A stretch of DNA of 47,010 nt from a virus. This document shows, one piece after another, positions 21,976-46,992 of this stretch (the stretch's first letter is position 1; each line of letters starts with the position of its first letter). The stretch covers positions 1 through 47,010 of the IMG/VR virus record IMGVR_UViG_3300022905_000018; one strand, 5' to 3'. The notes under the pieces are model-generated. The model made no database searches, had not been told where the DNA came from, and was given only the letters and a program-made list of their open reading frames with translations. The position numbers and the translations under genes were made by a program.

Positions 21976-24900
21976 ATGTTTAAAAAATTAAATCATAACG
22001 GCAATAATTTTGAATTTCCTGATAACGAAAAAGGAAAAAAAGATTACGAAGCTTTTATTGCCAAATTTCCAGATGCTATAGAGGTAGCAATTACCCCCGA
22101 CCCCGATAAGGAGGGAAAGGAAACCCCTTCACAGGAGATAAAGAGTGCGCCTGTGGAGGAAAGTGTAGCACTCGAGCCTACCGTTACGGATTCCAAGCCG
22201 GTAGTTATTTCATCGGATTTACCAAAGATTAAAACTGGTACCGTTGCAGATACAGAATATATTCCACCCATTATAACTTCAAAAGAATCGCAGAAAATTA
22301 TTGATGATTTTAATAAAGTAAGTAATATTGATATTGAATTTGAAAATAAAAAAGCAACTGTAGAAAAAATAAATAGATTTAAAAAAGATCAATTTAAAAC
22401 TGCTGAAAGAGAAGAATATAATTTATATAAACAAACCGGAAAAGTACAACCTATTATATTAGAAGACGCGGAAATAAAACAAAAAATTGAAAATAACAGA
22501 AGAGATTTTATGGAAGATATTGCACAAGATAAACGTGTGCAATTACTTAATCAAGAAACAAAACTTAGAGATGCTTTACTTAATACTACTAATGAATTAG
22601 CTTCTAAAATAAACTCCAATATAGATTCTGTTAATAATATTATTTCTCAATATGAAGAAAGCGTTAAGCAAAACGTTCCATATTCAGAAGATGAATATAA
22701 TATAGCAAAACAAAAATCTCAAGAAATTATAAAATCTACTAAGCAAATGGAAAGTGATTTGCTGAGGGATCTTGCTATTTTAAATAAAAAAAATGAGTTT
22801 ATAGATTCTTTTAAAAGATCTTATAGTAATATAGATCAACTAGAAAATGTTTTAAAAACAACAGCTACCGATATAGCTTTGGGTTTAGCAGTGCCGTTAG
22901 ACATGCTTAAATCCGAAGAAGGAAAAGAAAAATCTTACTCCAAAGACTTATTAAATTACCGACAAAAACTTCAGAAAGAATCTGCCGAAGGTTTACCAAA
23001 AGCTATACCAGTAGAAAGTATTTCAAGCTTTAAAGATCTTGTAAACTGGGGGTCAGATAGTTTTGTAAATTTTGTGCCAAGCGGCGTTATGGCATTCACT
23101 GGTGCCGCCGCTCCTTATTTATTTGGGGCATCTGGTTTTGGAAGCCGAATGGCTCAATTTGAGTTAGAAGCTTTAGAGGCTAAAAATCAACTTCCTAAAT
23201 TATTAGAATTACAGGATAAGTCAGACGATCCTTTAGAGCAGGCTGAAATAAAAAAAGAAATAGATAAATATAATGAAGCCTTAAATGTAAGCAACTTAAA
23301 AAAACTTGCCGTTAGTGGAATATACGGGGCAGCAGAAGTAGGAACTGAAATGCTAACTACGGTAAGATTAGTAAAAGATTTAAAATCAGCTAATACGTTG
23401 TTTTACAAAGAAGGCTTCGGGCCAGCTTTTAAACAAGCAATAAAAGATATACCTACAGGAGGCACACTCGAGGGGGGTGGCGAGGGCTTAAATGCTATTA
23501 TTGGAAATATAGCTGATATAACTATATTAGGAGAAGATAAAAATGTACTTGATGGGGTTACGGAATCCGCCGCTCAAGGGTTTTTTATTGGTAATGGCTT
23601 TAAAGTAGCTAATGCTGGGAGCTTGGCTAAAGCTTACGCTTATGATGTTATTACAGATAAGCAAAACAAACAAGAAATTGAAAAAATATTAAAAGAAATA
23701 AATAGTCTTTCAGGTGCTTTTACAGAAGATACTGATATAAACACTAAAGCTGAAGCCGCTCGTGTTATAAGATCTAAAATTAAAGAGCTATCATTAAACC
23801 AAGATTTTACAGCTTCTCAATTTTTAAAGCTTTCTGAGGCTGACCAAAAAGCTGTTTTTGAAGCTGATAGGCAATCTAAAAAAGTAAATGAAAGATGGAA
23901 AAAAATAGCTAATTCTAACTTAGACGAAACTAGTAAAGATTTAATTAGAAAAGATCTTGAATCAGAATTTAATAGCTATCAAGATAAAAAAATATCTTTA
24001 CTTAGAAAATCTAATGTAAATACAGAATTACAGCAGCCTAAAGGATTACAAGAAGGAGATTTTTATAGAGGATATAAAATACATCAAGTTAACGATGCAG
24101 CGGTAAAAAGAAATAATTCTTTAAATAAGCTTGCAAACAAAGTTGTTAATGTTTTAAGCAGTGAAGCTGAAACAATAAATGATTTTATTAATTCAGACGA
24201 AACACTGTTAACATTAAATGACGGAAGTGTAATTACGAAAGAAGATGCGCAACAAATTAATCAAATTTGGGAAAGTGGTTCTGATGGGGGATTTGATCGC
24301 ATCAGTAAAAATCAATATACTATTATTGAAAGAGCTGCGGTAAATAATCCATCTACAGCTTTGCATGAATATTTTCATGCTATGGCCGCCGAAAAAGGCT
24401 TTACAGAAGAACAATATAATAAAATAAAAGATGATTATATAAAACTGCTAAAAGCTAAAAAAGAAAGTGGAGAGTTAACAGAAAAACAGTATAATGAAAT
24501 TTTCAGCAGACTTCCTTTATATAATGGAACTACGGCACAAGCGGAAGAATTAATTAACTTAACAGCTGATGCGGTAAACTTGCAAATAATTAAAGAAACA
24601 GATTTTAATTTTTTACAAAGATTTGCTAATAATGTTAAATCTATAGTAGGTTCTATAATAGGCAAAGATGAGGCTGATAATTTTAATATTAATACAGCAG
24701 AAGACGCCTGGAATATGGTGCAAACTTTTTCTAAAGATGTATTAAGTTCTGCTCCTCAAAAGCGAATTATAGGTACTCAACCTGAAGAAGAAGATACAGC
24801 TACTAAAAAAGTCGAAACAGTAATTAAAGAATCAAGATCTGAAGAAGCATCTAATAAAGTTCAAGAAATATATGAACAAAAAGGTATTAATGGCGCTTTA

Positions 24901-40982: not shown

Positions 40983-41735
40983 TTATAGATAATCAAGCAC
41001 TTGCGAGCTATCTACGTTGTTAATTAATTTTTGTATTGCGTCTTTTTTTATTTCTGATATTCTGACATAAGCACTAGGACCTTCAATACCTATAATATCA
41101 GCAATAGCATTGGCAGAATGTTTATCACAATCTAGCCCGTATGATAATCTTAATACTTCATATTCTTTTTCATTCAAGTTTTTCTTTAATAAACTTTTTA
41201 AATATAAATTTAAAAATCCTAAATTATAGGGTTCTGATCTATCAGGTACTTGGTCAAAATAAGTATCTTCATTTTCAGCTTGTTCATCTATACTTAAAAA
41301 TATACTATTAAAAAATATCTCTACTATTTTTTTATTATGTGGATTTTGACGCATTTCATTTAATTTGTGCTCTGGTATGCGTATGTGCCCCCTTGTTATA
41401 TCTATAGCCCTCCGTATTGCACCCTTAATTCTTTTTGATAGAAAAGACTTAATGGTTTTTTCGGGATCAACAGATTGTATTATAGTGTCCATTTCTATTT
41501 TATCTACAGCGGCAATTAGTCCTTTGCTTCCTTCTTGTATTAAATCTGTAATATCTAATACACCCGAGGCTTGTTGTGAAGTTGCAAATTTATGTGCCAT
41601 ATTTTCTACAAGTGGTAAAAACTTAATTATTAACTCATCTCTAGTATAAAGGTTATACGCAGGTTTATCTTCAGGCATGCTATCATTTAAATCATTTTTG
41701 TACCTGACGTAATTCTTTATATTATATTTTTTCAT
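40983..41735 (-). CDS. Phage-encoded RNA polymerase sigma factor
   Basis: The 250-residue sigma70-family protein has region 2 as LVENMAHKFATSQQ and DLIQEGSKGLIAAVDKI (about 64-80), then FLSKRIKGAIRRAIDITRGH with IRIPEHKLNEMR (about 98-129) covering 2.4-3.0. A domain 4-like end (LNEKEYEVLRLSYGL, then a HTH at about 207-235) is also present. It would redirect host RNA polymerase to phage promoters, since no phage RNA polymerase is seen in the window. It is paired with a HTH protein gene (3-base gap), under the same element copy. Confidence 0.85.
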   Translation of the reverse strand: MKKYNIKNYVRYKNDLNDSMPEDKPAYNLYTRDELIIKFLPLVENMAHKFATSQQASGVLDITDLIQEGSKGLIAAVDKIEMDTIIQSVDPEKTIKSFLSKRIKGAIRRAIDITRGHIRIPEHKLNEMRQNPHNKKIVEIFFNSIFLSIDEQAENEDTYFDQVPDRSEPYNLGFLNLYLKSLLKKNLNEKEYEVLRLSYGLDCDKHSANAIADIIGIEGPSAYVRISEIKKDAIQKLINNVDSSQVLDYL

Positions 41736-41738
41736 TTT

Positions 41739-42353
41739 CTAAAGCATTGAGTTCATAATATTTTTTTCGTTTTTTAATTGGTTATCAAGGTTTCTGTACA
41801 CGGTTCTGGTTGAACAACCCAACATTCGTGCAATGGCTTGGATTGTTATGCATTCGTGCATATCGTGTATAGCATTCATGCATTCATATATACTTTCTTT
41901 ACTTGCTAATTTAGATCTTCCTATAAGCTTTCCTACTATACTTAATTTTTCTGATCTTGTTAATCCTGTTTGATCTTTAAATATAATTTTTCTAATCTTA
42001 TTTTTTGGTGGAGATTCTAAATCTAAACTATAAATATTATTTATAATACTATTTAAATTACTTTCCGTAATATCGAAGGTAATAAAATTATTTGACATAG
42101 TAGTTATAAATCTGCATAATTCTTTAAATTTTTTTTCGTCAAGCGTTGGGTTTAAATATAATAAAACTAATAAATGCCATCTTAAAGATTTATACGTATT
42201 AATCTTAGCCTTGCTTCTAAATAATTCATAACATTCAAATGTACCATCTTCATAATAGCTACCCCAATCAAATACCATAGAGGGGGTATCGTTGATAGGT
42301 CCCCTTCTATATATGATTCTGTTATTAATTAAATAATCCATATTGCGTGACAT
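41739..42353 (-). CDS. HTH DNA-binding protein paired with sigma factor
   Basis: The 204-residue protein's C-terminus (about 160-200) contains a helix-turn-helix, ITIQAIARMLGCSTRTVYRN, of the DNA-binding regulator type. The N-terminal 150 residues form an unrecognised, mixed alpha/beta domain. It starts just below a repeated promoter-like element (42365-42404) and is followed after 3 bases by the sigma gene, suggesting an autoregulated pair acting at early-to-late switching. It may be an anti-sigma or activator; this cannot be told from sequence. Confidence 0.65.
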   Translation of the reverse strand: MSRNMDYLINNRIIYRRGPINDTPSMVFDWGSYYEDGTFECYELFRSKAKINTYKSLRWHLLVLLYLNPTLDEKKFKELCRFITTMSNNFITFDITESNLNSIINNIYSLDLESPPKNKIRKIIFKDQTGLTRSEKLSIVGKLIGRSKLASKESIYECMNAIHDMHECITIQAIARMLGCSTRTVYRNLDNQLKNEKNIMNSML

Positions 42354-42364
42354 TAGCCTGTTAC

Positions 42365-42404
42365 TTATATAATATTACTACTTATTGTCGCATTACATTT
42401 CTAA
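42365..42404 (-). promoter_or_regulatory. Bipartite element copy I (upstream of HTH-sigma genes)
   Basis: On the - strand: TTAGAAATGTAATGCG, then 8 bases ACAATAAG, then TAGTAATATTATATAA, with the HTH gene's ATG (42353) about 12 bases further on. The upstream half matches 11 of 16 bases of the strong consensus. Flanking GCG-ACA and TGTCACGC segments make a loose inverted repeat around the start. Confidence 0.55.
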
Positions 42405-42611: not shown

Positions 42612-42861
42612 TTAATTTAATTTTATATATATTAATTTGATCAAATACTATTTTACATTTTTCATAATTTTCAGTACTTTCATAAAGATCTAATAATTCT
42701 TCTAATAGCTTTAAACATTCTTCATAGAAAATTATTCTTTCAAAAGCTTCATATAAATCTACAGGAGGCAAAATTAAATTCGGTTTTACTGAATCAAGTG
42801 ATGCTAATTCATTTAATAATTTTTTTTCTTTATATAATAGATTAAGTATATCTCTATTCAT
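42565..42861 (-). CDS. Helical hypothetical protein
   Basis: The 98-residue, Leu/Glu/Lys-rich protein is nearly all helical, with LYKEKKLLNELASLDSVK followed by FERIIFYEECLKLLEELLDL. It probably forms a helical hairpin or coiled coil. It overlaps the upstream gene by 8 bases. No family is recognised. Confidence 0.5.
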   Translation of the reverse strand: MNRDILNLLYKEKKLLNELASLDSVKPNLILPPVDLYEAFERIIFYEECLKLLEELLDLYESTENYEKCKIVFDQINIYKIKLNENKNFKQDLSNMGK

Positions 42862-43069
42862 TATCTAATTCTATAAGTTTATAAATGTAATTTAATACAT
42901 CTAATTCTATTTTAGCACTTTCAATAAGGCCATTCATTTCTTCGCTAGTAATATTACCTCTAAAAATACCGCTTTTAAATTCGTGGCGCAAGTCTTCAAT
43001 ATAAATATTAGCATGCATTATTTTAGAATAAATTTTATTATTAGCTCTTTCTTTGATCGTCATTTTCAT
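42854..43069 (-). CDS. Small hypothetical protein
   Basis: The 71-residue mostly helical protein (MTIKERANNKIYSKIMHANI, then IELDVLNYIYKLIELDNE) has alternating charged and aliphatic residues. It overlaps the DnaA-like gene's end by 29 bases and the next gene's start by 8. It may work with the neighbouring small genes; no motif seen. Confidence 0.5.
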   Translation of the reverse strand: MKMTIKERANNKIYSKIMHANIYIEDLRHEFKSGIFRGNITSEEMNGLIESAKIELDVLNYIYKLIELDNE

Positions 43070-43535
43070 ATTTTTTATCGTCAGTTATATTATCAAGCTG
43101 ATCACGTAATTTGTCTGTAAATTTATGCCCCATTAAATTCATTTTAAGTAAAAGATCTTTTGCAAAATTATACATTTCTCGGTTTTGTAATAGTTTAATC
43201 CTATATTTATCATGATAAAATCTATCAGGATCAATGTTTTTTATTTGTAATTTAAGTTTGTTTTCTATATGAATTTTAAGCTTAATATATTGATTGTAAT
43301 ATTGTTTTTCCCATTTAGGATTTATTACATTTTCAAATAACTTAAGGCCATGAATAACTGTTGCATGATCTTTGTTTACAGCTTTACCAATCTTAACCAA
43401 TGATTCACCTGAATAATCTTTTGCTAATTTATAATAGATAGCTCTGGAATATACTACATCACGTCTGCGCGATTTTTCTTGTATTTGTCTGTTAAATGCG
43501 GTATTAACTGCATTTCTAATAATTGTTAAATTCAT
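43041..43535 (-). CDS. Protein with DnaA domain IV-like DNA-binding motif
   Basis: The 164-residue protein contains VVYSRAIYYKLAKDYSGESL followed by VKIGKAVNKDHATVIHGLKL (about 27-67). This closely follows the origin-binding helix-turn-helix of DnaA domain IV, whose signature ends 'RDHSTVLHA'. The AAA+ ATPase part of DnaA is missing; the rest is helical and basic. It could bind DnaA-box-like sites in phage or host DNA, as an origin specifier or as a competitor of host DnaA. It overlaps neighbours by 29 bases (downstream) and 4 (upstream). Confidence 0.7.
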   Translation of the reverse strand: MNLTIIRNAVNTAFNRQIQEKSRRRDVVYSRAIYYKLAKDYSGESLVKIGKAVNKDHATVIHGLKLFENVINPKWEKQYYNQYIKLKIHIENKLKLQIKNIDPDRFYHDKYRIKLLQNREMYNFAKDLLLKMNLMGHKFTDKLRDQLDNITDDKKYENDDQRKS

Positions 43536-43753
43536 AGTTTAATAAAGCTTAATGGTTTAATATATTTATTTATAAACTTACCAATTGATTCAGCATTACG
43601 CATACCTTCAAACATAAAAGGCTCAACACTTTTATAAAGGTATTCCCGATTGTTTGCAAATGTAAGCTTTAATTCGTTGGTTTGGTGATCGTACTCGGCT
43701 AATTTAATTGCTGCAGAGTTTACATTGATTCGTTCTTTAATTAGTTTTTTCAT
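43532..43753 (-). CDS. KTSC-domain protein
   Basis: The 73-residue protein matches the short KTSC domain: INVNSAAIKLAEYDHQTNEL, then LTFANNREYLYKSVEPFMFE and SIGKFINKYIKPL. The family is common in phages and bacteria and is thought to bind nucleic acid or associate with lysyl-tRNA synthetase-related contexts; the exact role is unknown. A strong copy of the bipartite element lies upstream (43781-43820), inside the end of the upstream gene. Confidence 0.65.
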   Translation of the reverse strand: MKKLIKERINVNSAAIKLAEYDHQTNELKLTFANNREYLYKSVEPFMFEGMRNAESIGKFINKYIKPLSFIKL

Positions 43754-43764
43754 AATTGTATTAT

Positions 43765-43977
43765 TTATTTTTTACTTTGTTTTATTATATTATCAAGGGT
43801 TGGTCGTGTTAGTTCTGTAATAGATATTTTATCTGTTATATCAATTGTTGCATCTTTAGGATAATACTTTAATATATTTTCAATTATATTAAGTTGTACA
43901 GAATCTTCTAATTCATTATTAAGCACATAATGATCGGTTCTGTCTTTATACGTTACAAATAGTTTGCTTAATCCCAT
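43765..43977 (-). CDS. Small hypothetical protein
   Basis: The 70-residue, mixed alpha/beta-looking protein has LFVTYKDRTDHYVLNNELED and TIDITDKISITELTRPTLDN, and ends KQSKK. Its last codons double as a promoter-like element (copy A), because the sequence TTGATAATATAATAAA is read as codons for L-D-N-I-I. No function recognised. Confidence 0.5.
   Translation of the reverse strand: MGLSKLFVTYKDRTDHYVLNNELEDSVQLNIIENILKYYPKDATIDITDKISITELTRPTLDNIIKQSKK
43781..43820 (-). promoter_or_regulatory. Bipartite element copy A
   Basis: On the - strand: TTACAGAACTAACACG, 8 bases, then TTGATAATATAATAAA. It is embedded within the coding end of the 70-residue gene and ends 28 bases before the KTSC gene's ATG, the longest spacing among the strong copies. 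Confidence 0.6.
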
Positions 43978-43989
43978 TTTATATATAAT

Positions 43990-44142
43990 TTAATCTTTTT
44001 CAAATATTTTATAATCATCTTCTTTTGAAAATTCAAATTTATTTCTGGACGGAACAGAACGAGATTTAAGTGGTGAATACTCATATCCAAGTATTGGATT
44101 TATATTTTGGTCCCACCATTTTTCGGGTAAAGGTTTATTCAT
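43990..44142 (-). CDS. Tiny protein (50 aa)
   Basis: A short gene of 50 residues (MNKPLPEKWWDQNINPILGY, then EYSPLKSRSVPSRNKFEF) ends in acidic KED-type residues. It sits in a row of closely spaced tiny genes with intergenic gaps of only 6-12 bases, which supports it. No function recognised. Confidence 0.45.
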   Translation of the reverse strand: MNKPLPEKWWDQNINPILGYEYSPLKSRSVPSRNKFEFSKEDDYKIFEKD

Positions 44143-44148
44143 AGTGTT

Positions 44149-44295
44149 TTATAATTGTTGGTTTAATATATAGTTTAATACTTGTTTAGTTGTGCCTTGC
44201 ATACTTTGCACAACGCCATTTTGATCTTCGTATTGAAGTTTATAAAACGATGGCTTGTGTATAGCAAATTGTGTGTTGTGTTTATTTCCTGCCAT
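44149..44295 (-). CDS. Tiny protein (48 aa)
   Basis: A short gene encodes MAGNKHNTQFAIHKPSFYKL followed by QYEDQNGVVQSMQGTTKQVL and NYILNQQL. Small, Gln/Asn-rich, soluble; the C-terminal repeat of VQ/VL resembles a short amphipathic helix. Gap of 6 bases to each neighbour supports an operon. Function unknown. Confidence 0.45.
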   Translation of the reverse strand: MAGNKHNTQFAIHKPSFYKLQYEDQNGVVQSMQGTTKQVLNYILNQQL

Positions 44296-44301
44296 AATAT
44301 T

Positions 44302-44484
44302 TTATTTTGTTACTCTTTTAATTAATGAAAATAATATTTGTTGTTTAATTTTTAATTCTAATTCACCTGTTAATTCATCACCTTCATCATCATCAAAAGT
44401 TAATTGCCAGTGAATTGTGTTGTCAATGTGTTCATCAATTTCTTCAATACATTGATCTGCTATTTGTTGTATTATTGTGTTCAT
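44302..44484 (-). CDS. Small acidic protein (60 aa)
   Basis: The 60-residue protein has an acidic middle (WQLTFDDDEGDELTGELELK) and basic end (LIKRVTK). Highly acidic small proteins in phage early regions may act as DNA mimics that inhibit host enzymes, but size and composition alone cannot show that. It starts 1 base after the next gene's stop. Confidence 0.45.
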   Translation of the reverse strand: MNTIIQQIADQCIEEIDEHIDNTIHWQLTFDDDEGDELTGELELKIKQQILFSLIKRVTK

Positions 44485-44485
44485 G

Positions 44486-44713
44486 CTATTTTAATAAGTG
44501 GTGTATTGGTTTTCCAAATTTATTAAACAAATATTCATTTGTTTCACAATGTTCAATTATATCTTGAGTTTCCATGTCAGTAAAGTATTGCCAACGTGTA
44601 TTACCTTCTTCATCTTCATAATCAATAGGGCAATTGTCAAGCCACGTTAATACTTCAAATTGACTCACGGGGTCTAAGTCTTCGTATTTATATGCTTTTA
44701 TTGTTACATTCAT
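44486..44713 (-). CDS. Small acidic protein with DnaK/anti-restriction-like composition (75 aa)
   Basis: The 75-residue protein (AYKYEDLDPVSQFEVLTWLD and DYEDEEGNTRWQYFTDMETQ) is strongly acidic. The pattern 'KYEDL...Q..VL.WL' looks like a folded small domain. Its start overlaps the upstream stop by 4 bases (ATGA). As with its neighbour, a host-inhibitor role is possible but unproven; the comparison is compositional only. Confidence 0.45.
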   Translation of the reverse strand: MNVTIKAYKYEDLDPVSQFEVLTWLDNCPIDYEDEEGNTRWQYFTDMETQDIIEHCETNEYLFNKFGKPIHHLLK

Positions 44714-44910
44714 GCTATTTCAAGATTAAGTTGTTGTACTACGTAGTTGATATGTTTTGTGGTTGTTGCGCTGTATGAGCCAACACCTGGCACACGCCAA
44801 TTAAGCCTGTATAATTTACCATCTTTAATTTCAGCAACGTGTGTATCGTAAGAATAAATATCGTTGCCAATCATTTTTAAATTTTCTTTGTATCTGTCAA
44901 ATGTTTTCAT
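44710..44910 (-). CDS. Small hypothetical protein (66 aa)
   Basis: The 66-residue protein (MKTFDRYKENLKMIGNDIYS, then HVAEIKDGKLYRLNWRVPGV) looks like a small beta-rich domain, ending TTTKHINYVVQQLNLEIA. A strong bipartite element (44922-44961) lies 11 bases before its start. Function unknown. Confidence 0.5.
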   Translation of the reverse strand: MKTFDRYKENLKMIGNDIYSYDTHVAEIKDGKLYRLNWRVPGVGSYSATTTKHINYVVQQLNLEIA

Positions 44911-44921
44911 AATTATATTTG

Positions 44922-44961
44922 TTTATTATATTATCAATTAGTTATCGTATTGTTTTTGTAT
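44922..44961 (-). promoter_or_regulatory. Bipartite element copy B
   Basis: On the - strand: ATACAAAAACAATACG, 8 bases ATAACTAA, then TTGATAATATAATAAA, 11 bases before the ATG of the 66-residue gene. It overlaps the end of the upstream zinc-ribbon gene, so the promoter reads through that gene's stop. Confidence 0.7.
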
Positions 44962-45054
44962 ACACCCAGCACATAGTGGTATTTCGTGTACATATTTTTG
45001 TGCAAATAGTTCTTCAAGTTCGTCAAGGGGTTCGTTGCAATAACTACAATTCAT
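44938..45054 (-). CDS. Tiny zinc-ribbon protein (38 aa)
   Basis: A 38-residue gene carries two Cys pairs: CSYC near the start and CAGC near the end, with an acidic middle (LDELEELFAQKY). Such CxxC...CxxC miniature zinc ribbons bind nucleic acid or proteins. Its start overlaps the next gene's stop by 1 base. Missed by length cutoffs, but motif and coupling support it. Confidence 0.55.
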   Translation of the reverse strand: MNCSYCNEPLDELEELFAQKYVHEIPLCAGCIQKQYDN

Positions 45055-45251
45055 TATGCTATTTTTATATATTGATTTTCTGTGTTCCAGGCTTTGGTTG
45101 TCATATATCCAGTTGTGTAATATTCATTAAAGTCTAGTCTTCTCATCATATCTTTATACTCGCCTGTCATTTCAGGCTTTATGCATTTCTTAATGTAATG
45201 TATTGTTTTAATACCTTCTTTGTTTGTTCCGTAAAATATCCAGTTATTCAT
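45054..45251 (-). CDS. Small hypothetical protein (65 aa)
   Basis: The 65-residue protein has mixed aromatic/charged sequence (NWIFYGTNKEGIKTIHYIKK and LDFNEYYTTGYMTTKAWNTE). Downstream of bipartite element C (45260-45299), whose end is 8 bases from the start. No domain recognised. Confidence 0.5.
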   Translation of the reverse strand: MNNWIFYGTNKEGIKTIHYIKKCIKPEMTGEYKDMMRRLDFNEYYTTGYMTTKAWNTENQYIKIA

Positions 45252-45259
45252 GTTTATTG

Positions 45260-45299
45260 TTTATTATATTATCAATCTAATATCGTATTTATTTTGTAA
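45260..45299 (-). promoter_or_regulatory. Bipartite element copy C
   Basis: On the - strand: TTACAAAATAAATACG, 8 bases ATATTAGA, then TTGATAATATAATAAA. This is the best match to the consensus and ends 8 bases before the next ATG. It contains the upstream gene's stop codon. Confidence 0.75.
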
Positions 45300-45441
45300 G
45301 CCCGCGAGCTATTTTAAGAAGTTCAGTTGTGCTTTTGCTTTCGGCTTCAACCTTCCACGCATTCTTTTCTTTTACTTCTAATCTCCACATATCCATGGAA
45401 AAACCACCTTTAATTTGCCAATCTTGTATATTTCTTTTCAT
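45289..45441 (-). CDS. Tiny protein (50 aa)
   Basis: A short gene of 50 residues (MKRNIQDWQIKGGFSMDMWR, then LEVKEKNAWKVEAESKSTTE and LLKIARGLTK). Its last codon is in the upstream half of element C. Overlaps the neighbour at 45438-45441 by 4 bases (ATGA). Function unknown. Confidence 0.45.
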   Translation of the reverse strand: MKRNIQDWQIKGGFSMDMWRLEVKEKNAWKVEAESKSTTELLKIARGLTK

Positions 45442-45584
45442 CCTATATATTCTAATAATTTTTTAATCTTCTTTAAATTCTTGTGAGCAATCTGTGCATT
45501 CATAAAGTGTGCGTAGTCTGGACCGAGTTCAACCAGATCATCGATCGTTTGGCGTAATTCGTAAAGTTTATCTTTTGTTTTCAT
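45438..45584 (-). CDS. Tiny helical protein (48 aa)
   Basis: A short gene encodes MKTKDKLYELRQTIDDLVEL, then GPDYAHFMNAQIAHKNLKKI and KKLLEYIG, mostly helical. An ATG nine bases upstream (45593) is an alternative start; the MKT start is preferred because several neighbours begin with MKT. Function unknown. Confidence 0.45.
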   Translation of the reverse strand: MKTKDKLYELRQTIDDLVELGPDYAHFMNAQIAHKNLKKIKKLLEYIG

Positions 45585-45611
45585 ATTTATCATTTTATGT
45601 TGTGTATAACA

Positions 45612-45872
45612 TTATGTTCCGCTTCGGCCCCAAGCACCCGCTTCACTATTTAAATATTCATCTTGCATTGCATCAAGTTTAACTTTAGTGTCGTACTTAG
45701 ATACATGATCTTTGATAGTATCAATAGCTTCAGATATATCATCAAAGTTAATGTGTGTTGTTGATGAAGGTCGTTTGAGTATAACCGTAGCACCATAAGG
45801 ACTCAACTTAGTATTCATAAAGCTGTAAGTACCGGGGCGGAACGTGAACATTTCATTGTCTATAGTTTTCAT
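45612..45872 (-). CDS. Small hypothetical protein (86 aa)
   Basis: The 86-residue protein has a beta-rich start (FTFRPGTYSFMNTKLSPYGA), then a helical part (EAIDTIKDHVSKYDTKVKLD). Downstream of bipartite element D, whose end is 8 bases from its ATG. No domain recognised. Confidence 0.5.
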   Translation of the reverse strand: MKTIDNEMFTFRPGTYSFMNTKLSPYGATVILKRPSSTTHINFDDISEAIDTIKDHVSKYDTKVKLDAMQDEYLNSEAGAWGRSGT

Positions 45873-45880
45873 ATCTTTTG

Positions 45881-45920
45881 TTTATTATATTATCAATCAA
45901 CCAACGTGTTTATCCTGCAA
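45881..45920 (-). promoter_or_regulatory. Bipartite element copy D
   Basis: On the - strand: TTGCAGGATAAACACG, 8 bases, then TTGATAATATAATAAA, 8 bases before the next ATG. Its upstream half overlaps the end of the small membrane gene. Confidence 0.7.
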
Positions 45921-46065
45921 TTCCAAAACTTGCATTGTTAAATCCTCCTCCAATTACTCCCTCAATTATTATCATAACCAGTCCGACAGTTATCAAAACT
46001 ATTTTTGCAATTATAATTCCTTGTATTGCAATGCTTAAAATTTTGTTGTGATGAAATTTTCTCAT
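45910..46065 (-). CDS. Tiny membrane protein (51 aa)
   Basis: A short gene encodes MRKFHHNKILSIAIQGIIIA, then KIVLITVGLVMIIIEGVIGG and GFNNASFGIAG: one or two hydrophobic helices with a basic N-terminus (positive-inside). Likely an inner-membrane micropeptide. The nearest upstream element, H, is about 80 bases away. Role unknown. Confidence 0.5.
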   Translation of the reverse strand: MRKFHHNKILSIAIQGIIIAKIVLITVGLVMIIIEGVIGGGFNNASFGIAG

Positions 46066-46077
46066 TTGTAAAGGTGT

Positions 46078-46203
46078 TTATTTATTTGTATGTATTTTTT
46101 TTATCTTAGTTATAATGCATGATCTATATGCATATAATACTTTATTTTCATTTATTATCAGATCAATTACGTGTTTTTCTTGTAAAGATCTAGAGTGCGA
46201 CAT
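46078..46203 (-). CDS. Possible tiny protein (41 aa) with start region like the HTH gene
   Basis: A 41-residue ORF (MSHSRSLQEKHVIDLIINEN, then KVLYAYRSCIITKIKKIHTN) begins under element J. Both its upstream region and its start context (TTAATGTCxC on one strand) resemble those of the HTH gene, which starts MSRNMDY. Element H lies inside this ORF, so it may be coding, a relic, or just regulatory spacing. Low confidence. Confidence 0.3.
   Translation of the reverse strand: MSHSRSLQEKHVIDLIINENKVLYAYRSCIITKIKKIHTNK
46146..46185 (-). promoter_or_regulatory. Bipartite element copy H (weak)
   Basis: On the - strand: TTACAAGAAAAACACG, 8 bases, then CTGATAATAAATGAAA. The upstream half is well kept and the 8-base spacing exact, but the downstream half is degenerate. 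It overlaps the possible 41-residue gene. Confidence 0.45.
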
Positions 46204-46215
46204 TAGGTACTTAAT

Positions 46216-46255
46216 TAAATAATAATAACAAGCTATTGTCACACATTATTTTTTA
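46216..46255 (-). promoter_or_regulatory. Bipartite element copy J (weak)
   Basis: On the - strand: TAAAAAATAATGTGTG, 8 bases ACAATAGC, then TTGTTATTATTATTTA. Less well matched (8 of 16 in the upstream half), but it has the same spacing and resembles element I, including flanking TGTGACA and TGTCGCAC. Confidence 0.35.
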
Positions 46256-46367
46256 TTATTATTCTTTCATTTTCATTTAAGTTATAATATCTTTTTAGTT
46301 TATAACTTAATAATTCTTTATTCATATTTGAGTTTTTGTAACTTTGTATAATTTTATTTAATTTCAT
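46239..46367 (-). CDS. Tiny basic protein (42 aa)
   Basis: A short gene encodes MKLNKIIQSYKNSNMNKELL, then SYKLKRYYNLNENERIIIKN. Basic, with helical propensity; the start overlaps the upstream stop region by a few bases (2-base gap). Its end runs into element J. Function unknown. Confidence 0.4.
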   Translation of the reverse strand: MKLNKIIQSYKNSNMNKELLSYKLKRYYNLNENERIIIKNNV

Positions 46368-46368
46368 T

Positions 46369-46509
46369 TTATTGTATTTTATTATTAGTTTTTAATATTG
46401 AGTCAATTTCTTTTTTAGTTAAGTTTAATTCTTTTTCATTTTCAAGATAGAAAAAGAAAGCTTTTGTTATATTAGTGTAGTCAGATTGAGTTAATGTAAT
46501 TGTTTTCAT
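46369..46509 (-). CDS. Tiny protein (46 aa)
   Basis: A short gene of 46 residues (MKTITLTQSDYTNITKAFFF, then YLENEKELNLTKKEIDSILK). It is downstream of strong element E, ending 9 bases before the ATG. The MKTI start and small size match other early genes. Function unknown. Confidence 0.5.
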   Translation of the reverse strand: MKTITLTQSDYTNITKAFFFYLENEKELNLTKKEIDSILKTNNKIQ

Positions 46510-46518
46510 GTTATTTAT

Positions 46519-46558
46519 TTTATTATATTATCAAAGTAATAACGTATTATTTTTGTAA
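46519..46558 (-). promoter_or_regulatory. Bipartite element copy E
   Basis: On the - strand: TTACAAAAATAATACG, 8 bases TTATTACT, then TTGATAATATAATAAA, 9 bases before the ATG of the 46-residue gene. Confidence 0.75.
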
Positions 46559-46567
46559 GGCTTCGAT

Positions 46568-46744
46568 TCAGTCGACAATGTTATAGGCTAAGCCCAGCAT
46601 TCTATCGATCTTCTCGATAATTTCGTTTACGTGTGTTTCAAATTTTTTAAGCTCTGAGGGTCCAGCATTCGGTACATCATCACTATTCAGCAGATCTTCC
46701 ACTGCATACCTCATCAAGTGTAATTCGTTCTTTGTAAATTTCAT
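46568..46744 (-). CDS. Small hypothetical protein (58 aa)
   Basis: A short gene encodes MKFTKNELHLMRYAVEDLLN, then SDDVPNAGPSELKKFETHVN and EIIEKIDRMLGLAYNIVD, a helical protein of the type 'hypothetical early gene'. It follows element F by 9 bases. The sequence has a slightly higher GC than the surroundings. Function unknown. Confidence 0.5.
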   Translation of the reverse strand: MKFTKNELHLMRYAVEDLLNSDDVPNAGPSELKKFETHVNEIIEKIDRMLGLAYNIVD

Positions 46745-46753
46745 GTTATATAT

Positions 46754-46793
46754 TTTATATTAGTATCAATTGTATTACGTATTTATTCTGTAA
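46754..46793 (-). promoter_or_regulatory. Bipartite element copy F
   Basis: On the - strand: TTACAGAATAAATACG, 8 bases TAATACAA, then TTGATACTAATATAAA, 9 bases before the next ATG. The downstream half is a variant with two changes. Confidence 0.7.
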
Positions 46794-46941
46794 CCTCTCG
46801 AACTTCTTTTATATTGTCTAAGCCCCATTGCTCTGCTGCATATTTAGTTGCTTCTATTATACTATTTGCTTTTACATAACTTTTAAAGTGTGTTGCAATT
46901 CCTCGTTTAAGCCAAGTGGCTTCTTTAATTACTTCGTACAT
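46783..46941 (-). CDS. Small hypothetical protein (52 aa)
   Basis: A short gene encodes MYEVIKEATWLKRGIATHFK, then SYVKANSIIEATKYAAEQWG and LDNIKEVREVTE, a small soluble helical protein. Preceded by element G, with 11 bases from the element to the ATG. Its stop lies in element F. Function unknown. Confidence 0.5.
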   Translation of the reverse strand: MYEVIKEATWLKRGIATHFKSYVKANSIIEATKYAAEQWGLDNIKEVREVTE

Positions 46942-46952
46942 ATCTTTTATAT

Positions 46953-46992
46953 TTTATATTATTATCAAATTAGTTGCGTATTTATTTTGTAA
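46953..46992 (-). promoter_or_regulatory. Bipartite element copy G
   Basis: On the - strand: TTACAAAATAAATACG, 8 bases CAACTAAT, then TTGATAATAATATAAA. Last copy before the right edge of the window; more copies could lie beyond it. Confidence 0.7.

Follow-up and report, generated by a model that had tools for sequence, protein, structure and literature searches.

The two-box element in the early region of the window

The stretch of DNA analyzed here (the window) is the entire IMG/VR record IMGVR_UViG_3300022905_000018, a linear viral fragment of 47,010 bases in which a two-box, promoter-like element recurs among the small early genes. The + strand carries the virion (late) genes between 87 and 30,661; the - strand carries the replication, nucleotide and small early genes, which extend from 46,992 to 30,708, "early" being assigned from position and gene type alone. 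Longer relatives mostly measure 59-72 kb, so the window lacks part of its genome; by comparison with these relatives, the missing part includes their divergent early/late control region. The genome is of the podovirus type, with a full length put at about 60-70 kb. Its terminase is closest to that of a complete podovirus record from Manatee Spring (62%) and next closest to those of phages of Flavobacterium, Cellulophaga, Tenacibaculum and Maribacter, which points to a flavobacterium as the probable host.

Nine copies of the element are found in the window, listed here with the predicted transcription start (+1), the resulting leader and the open reading frame (ORF) that each would drive:

46953-46992, - strand: promoter copy; predicted -10 at 46966-46961, +1 at 46954, leader 13 nt; would drive ORF 46783-46941
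46754-46793, - strand: promoter copy with -10 GATACT; predicted +1 at 46755, leader 11 nt; would drive ORF 46568-46744; the stop codon of the upstream ORF lies inside box 1
46519-46558, - strand: promoter copy; predicted +1 at 46520, leader 11 nt, ATG at 46509
46146-46185, - strand: weaker promoter copy (CACG, CTGATAATA); predicted +1 at 46147; directly downstream of an inverted-repeat element
45881-45920, - strand: promoter copy; predicted +1 at 45882, leader 10 nt; would drive ORF 45612-45872
45260-45299, - strand: promoter copy identical to the local consensus; predicted +1 at 45261, leader 10 nt; would drive ORF 45054-45251
44922-44961, - strand: promoter copy; predicted +1 at 44923, leader 13 nt; would drive ORF 44710-44910
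43781-43820, - strand: promoter copy within an upstream ORF; predicted +1 at 43782, leader 29 nt; would drive ORF 43532-43753 (KTSC domain)
43081-43120, - strand: promoter copy overlooked earlier; predicted +1 at 43082 (G after T), leader 13 nt; would drive ORF 42854-43069

The seven strong - strand copies of the original prediction (43781, 44922, 45260, 45881, 46519, 46754 and 46953) are all present, and a direct scan of the window finds them together with 46146 and the additional copy at 43081. A 40-base pattern allowing up to three mismatches finds four of them (44922, 45260, 46519 and 46953), with none expected in shuffled sequence. A position matrix derived from relatives scores the same nine sites (21.4 for 46146 and 28.8, of 44.6, for 43081), and in both the direct and the matrix scans every copy lies on the gene strand and none on the opposite one, as had been claimed. 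Of three weaker copies proposed earlier only 46146 stands; those at 42365 and 46216 contain no match to the motif and overlap the left arms of an inverted-repeat element (see below). The distance of 8-11 bases between the second box and the ATG holds, with a correction to 27 bases (instead of 28) for the copy at 43781. Leaders in the window measure 10-13 nt, except for 29 nt (43781) and 82 nt (46146, to the first ORF counted), and none of the copies is leaderless. Since the preceding gene often has its stop codon within box 1, several copies overlap coding DNA in part, and those at 43781 and 43081 lie entirely within an upstream ORF.

Conservation among relatives and the predicted start point

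Relatives were collected with the protein of a sigma gene encoded downstream of the copies as query, which fetched 24 related contigs:

40983-41735, - strand: phage-encoded sigma factor of the sigma-70 family with regions 2 and 4, the proposed reader of the promoters; PHROG 351 (E=2.7e-21), profile search against PDB, AlphaFold model

Eighteen of these 24 contigs carry the element when scanned whole with up to three mismatches, always on one strand per contig, whereas a reversed-pattern control yielded two matches in total over the 24 records. Genomes hold up to 10 copies on a single strand (whole-contig scans), located on the early-gene strand upstream of the phage sigma gene. Scanning IMG/VR for exact matches to the family core gave at least 117 stretches. 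The alignment comprises 313 copies (310 distinct) from about 50 uncultured related contigs, clade-mates in which motif copies are not independent events, and gives the family consensus TTACAAAnTAAATACGA-N9-GATAATAWAA. The fixed spacing noted in the original prediction stands, and across the family is best described as 10 bases between TACG and GATAAT, a value found for 273 of the 281 early-strand pairs (range searched 4-16) as opposed to two pairs on the opposite strand. The second box needed revision, since the TT of its "TTG" holds just for the window's own group; the family-wide core is ACAAAnTAAATACGA-N9-GATAATA. Neither box 1 alone nor box 2 alone showed a clear excess of sites, and the two occur together. 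A de novo motif search recovered the element from upstream regions of early-strand genes; late-strand regions, examined for a late promoter motif, gave just A-rich start contexts.

The copies in relatives, in which genes were called mechanically as ATG ORFs of at least 40 codons, share a sharply defined position downstream of the second box. Of the 227 copies without an overlapping start codon, 98% have a purine (A or G) as the base 6 nt past GATAAT; G alone accounts for 41%, compared with 0-6% at neighboring positions, and T or C often precedes this base. A downstream ATG starts exactly at this base in 55 of 258 copies, compared with 2-5 at adjacent offsets. Leaders have a median length of 13 nt, and an ORF start follows 83% of copies, compared with 35% of control places. 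Because the purine start and the ATG spike lie at a fixed 6-nt distance, GATAAT can be assigned as a -10 hexamer; the base 6 nt after it is the predicted +1, and some of the mRNAs are predicted to be leaderless. As in two-element promoters of the sigma-70 family, a -10-like hexamer is fixed to a purine start and is accompanied by an upstream element at a fixed 10-bp spacing. On this sequence evidence the element is very probably a promoter of some kind. It is not the TTTG/TAnnTTTG promoter of Bacteroidota, in line with the original prediction: neither box is present, and that pattern is without consistent enrichment in the window's relatives. A plain sigma-70 consensus scan gave no excess over shuffles. 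The second promoter motif of B. thetaiotaomicron, PM2 (-10/-30), was discarded as a match since it is described as near-palindromic.

The phage sigma factor and other possible readers

The profile of the phage sigma factor matches FliA best among PDB entries (1rp3, 1.9e-8) and also RpoD, its AlphaFold model resembles chains of the sigma-70 family, and by eye a stretch of region 2.4, (S)KRIKGAIRR, is nearer to FliA than to RpoD. Among 39 long motif-bearing contigs tested, all from one phage group, 30 encode this sigma; the other nine are fragments with motif copies near a contig end, no primase and a terminase 66-76% identical, and every motif-rich contig that reaches the sigma region has the gene. 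Conversely, neither sigma nor element was detected in 19 sister-clade contigs or in the complete genome MW202828, with sigma-bearing contigs serving as positive controls in the same run. The element was not found in seven cultured or complete flavophage records, and a short-sequence BLAST against cultured phages gave chance-level matches only. Among the phages surveyed, the element is therefore found in numbers just where a cognate candidate sigma is also encoded, and the question of the recognizing factor, left open by the original prediction, narrows to the phage sigma as the leading candidate. Two relatives carry sigma genes interrupted by frameshifts or stops (L023 8103-8855 and G040 55767-56520), reflecting either sequencing error or real loss, and a contig of 129,537 bp (G063) holds two differing sigma genes and two early clusters, which would make it either a fusion of two related phages or a genome of double size.

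From this arrangement we infer, as the somewhat favored reading taken whole, that the element is an early/middle promoter read by host core RNA polymerase carrying the phage sigma. GATAAT would occupy -12 to -7 and be read by region 2, and the upstream box TTACAAAnTAAATACGA (-38 to -22) would act as an extended -35-like element read by region 4. Transcription would start 6 nt past GATAAT at a purine, which is often G or else the first base of the ATG; each copy would initiate a short unit of small early genes, with about one fifth of the mRNAs beginning exactly at AUG. With its gene downstream of the copies and on their strand, the sigma could feed back positively on its own expression.

Several observations weigh against the phage sigma as reader. 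Comparison of motif variants with sigma residues gave no covariation surviving multiple testing. The genes behind the promoters lie upstream of the sigma gene, so that sigma would need a first promoter, and no convincing host-type one was found. Exact copies occur in four Bacteroidota metagenome-assembled genomes (MAGs) and a myovirus-like contig, all without this sigma. Additionally, the co-occurrence tracks a single clade, so any other clade-specific protein fits equally well.

The copies outside the phage group are few: a collection of 84,980 genomes contains 10 stretches with the element, several of them on phage-like contigs. Exact or near-exact copies lie in flavobacterial/Bacteroidota MAG chromosomes lacking the phage sigma (L311 3777+, L314 5809-, L313 324+, L315 179-, L340 1706- and L316 4275+), mostly before genes for small secreted proteins without a Pfam match and in one case before a TerB-like gene. 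A 64-kb myovirus-like contig in a Prochlorococcus single-cell genome (G085:C9; L312 3130-) has a single, very strong copy (score 40) ahead of a gene for a small acidic protein. MAGs labelled Ilumatobacteraceae and Rhodobacteraceae (L309 and L317) also hold element-bearing contigs, L309 together with sigma, helix-turn-helix (HTH) and Erf genes; these are likely misbinned phage contigs. Since a rough estimate from base composition leaves about one match in the collection to chance and one genome has two copies, the copies outside the phage group are not all due to chance. That the flavobacterial genes behind exact copies are switched on by the sigma of an infecting phage, as an infection sensor, is conceivable but quite unlikely.

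Because the element does occur, if rarely, without the sigma, a host reader retains a lesser though appreciable probability. In that case the element would be a true promoter read on entry by the host holoenzyme (with a housekeeping or minor sigma), alone or with a phage or host activator on the upstream box, leaving the phage sigma for other genes. This would suit promoters that precede genes that must be read first, as well as the exact copies in flavobacterial MAG chromosomes and in the myovirus-like contig, and the upstream box at -38 to -22 stands in the place of MotA. The rarity of the element in the genome collection nevertheless argues in the other direction, as do the 320 kb of one such host, in which two paralogous strong sites stand alone without a graded tail, unlike a housekeeping promoter. 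GATAAT moreover differs from the TAnnTTTG of the host sigma, and sister phages lack the element.

Two further explanations appear highly improbable. The element could serve as the promoter of an injected virion RNA polymerase of the N4, phiKZ/AR9 or crAss-like type, for which speak the early promoters of AR9, likewise long, AT-rich and starting 6 nt past a fixed motif (PMC5312081), and a virion-side protein of 2522 amino acids without assignment. This possibility is faint: the two giant proteins gave no RNA polymerase family match (remote homologues could be missed) and contain just an acidic low-complexity DxDxD, the giant protein is largely poorly conserved between motif-bearing genomes, and a sigma-70-family factor is present instead. 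There is a comparably slight chance that the element is no promoter at all and acts as the operator of a repressor, an iteron for replication, a site at which early genes are swapped by recombination, or an RNA element in the 5' leader. Direct copies scattered between small genes would agree with such a role, and promoter copies could also double as crossover points. Operators, iterons or recombination sites would not, however, predict a purine at +1 together with a spike of ATG at the same base, and iterons are repeats without fixed relation to gene starts, whereas here the relation to +1 and ATG is fixed. Orientation on a single strand, the invariant 10-bp spacing, the site before early units and the de novo rediscovery likewise bear out the earlier preference for promoters over iterons; the element has no symmetry, the copy at 45260 has no stable RNA fold (z -0.5), and no Rfam match was found.

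Neighboring features and comparison with known systems

The sigma gene has an HTH neighbor associated with a separate, symmetrical element:

41739-42353, - strand: HTH protein whose gene lies immediately upstream of that of sigma; its start ATG falls within the inverted repeat's right arm
42346-42392, - strand: inverted-repeat element at the HTH gene start; the weak copy claimed at 42365 overlaps its left arm; likely an operator, not a promoter copy
46196-46243, - strand: second inverted-repeat element; the weak copy claimed at 46216 overlaps its left arm

The inverted repeat (TGYGACAnTAGCCTnTTA ... TAACAGGCTAnTGTCRCA, about 47 bp) spans the first codon of the HTH gene in nearly all relatives; further copies occur ahead of one early promoter and in the divergent control region. 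Most simply, the HTH protein would bind this repeat, regulating its own operon and sigma, and probably tuning the divergent early/late control region as well. A fold search with its predicted structure (predicted local distance difference test 90) found no PDB relative. As reader of the promoters the HTH protein was rejected. It goes with the inverted repeat, and a 50-kb contig (G009) that lacks both, with an apparent DNA ligase in the place of the HTH gene, keeps TACG-N10-GATAAT intact; the loss coincides with a changed left half of the motif (TCGAATnT). Motif variants showed no covariation with HTH residues beyond multiple testing. The region at about 4-10 kb of this contig (L009), with TCGAATnT in place of TTACAAA and a DNA-ligase-like ORF before sigma, represents a natural swap. 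As RNA, the inverted-repeat copy at 46196 has an unusually good fold (z -3.8). The two closest relatives (G002 oriented 23803-23850 and G003 oriented 19240) have box-1-like sequences without GATAAT (TTACAGAAAAATCACG) in their divergent control region. The window also encodes, at 43041-43535, a small protein with a DnaA DNA-binding domain (PF08299, 5.9e-12) that is present in some relatives only; it was discarded as a reader, not being found in most motif genomes.

In the open-access literature searched, neither this promoter nor any phage-specific early promoter paired with a cognate sigma in a Bacteroidota phage was found described. For about 300 early units the element predicts the start site to the exact base. 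It also offers an inexpensive marker for this uncultured marine clade, and together with the sigma it forms a defined candidate sigma-promoter pair, testable in vitro. The frequent predicted start at AUG deserves attention because leaderless mRNAs are rare in Bacteroidota, with 3.7% of leaders under 10 nt in B. thetaiotaomicron (PMC7366714), and because their ribosomes do not recognize Shine-Dalgarno sites (PMC9976891).

Among known systems, the Bacteroidota sigma-A promoter (-33 TTTG / -7 TAnnTTTG) would be the expected host promoter, and the element contains neither of its boxes. The middle promoters of T4 combine a MotA activator box around -30 with a -10, MotA aiding sigma-70. The element likewise joins an upstream box to a -10, but the sequences differ, no MotA-like protein was identified here, and the HTH protein goes with the inverted repeat. 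With the early promoters of AR9 and phiKZ it shares many copies of a long AT-rich motif and a start 6 nt downstream (PMC5312081), whereas those are read by a multisubunit virion RNA polymerase, none of which was found here. FliA (sigma-28) recognizes the consensus TAAAGTTT-n11-GCCGATAA (PMC2859248), whose -10, GCCGATAA, contains GATAA; FliA is also the best PDB sequence match of the phage sigma and has the RIKGAI stretch in common with it. The upstream box and spacing do not match the FliA-type consensus, however, GATAA alone being shared; as FliA and RpoD score almost alike for the phage sigma, the likeness to FliA is a lead and not membership. Finally, phiEco32 and 7-11 also encode a sigma factor of their own, transcribed from host and phage promoters (PMC4331800), and their promoters were inferred from repeated intergenic motifs. 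Their consensus, TAATGTATA, occurs in few copies and serves middle/late genes, whereas here a long two-box element extends over the early cluster of phages with a probable flavobacterial host group.

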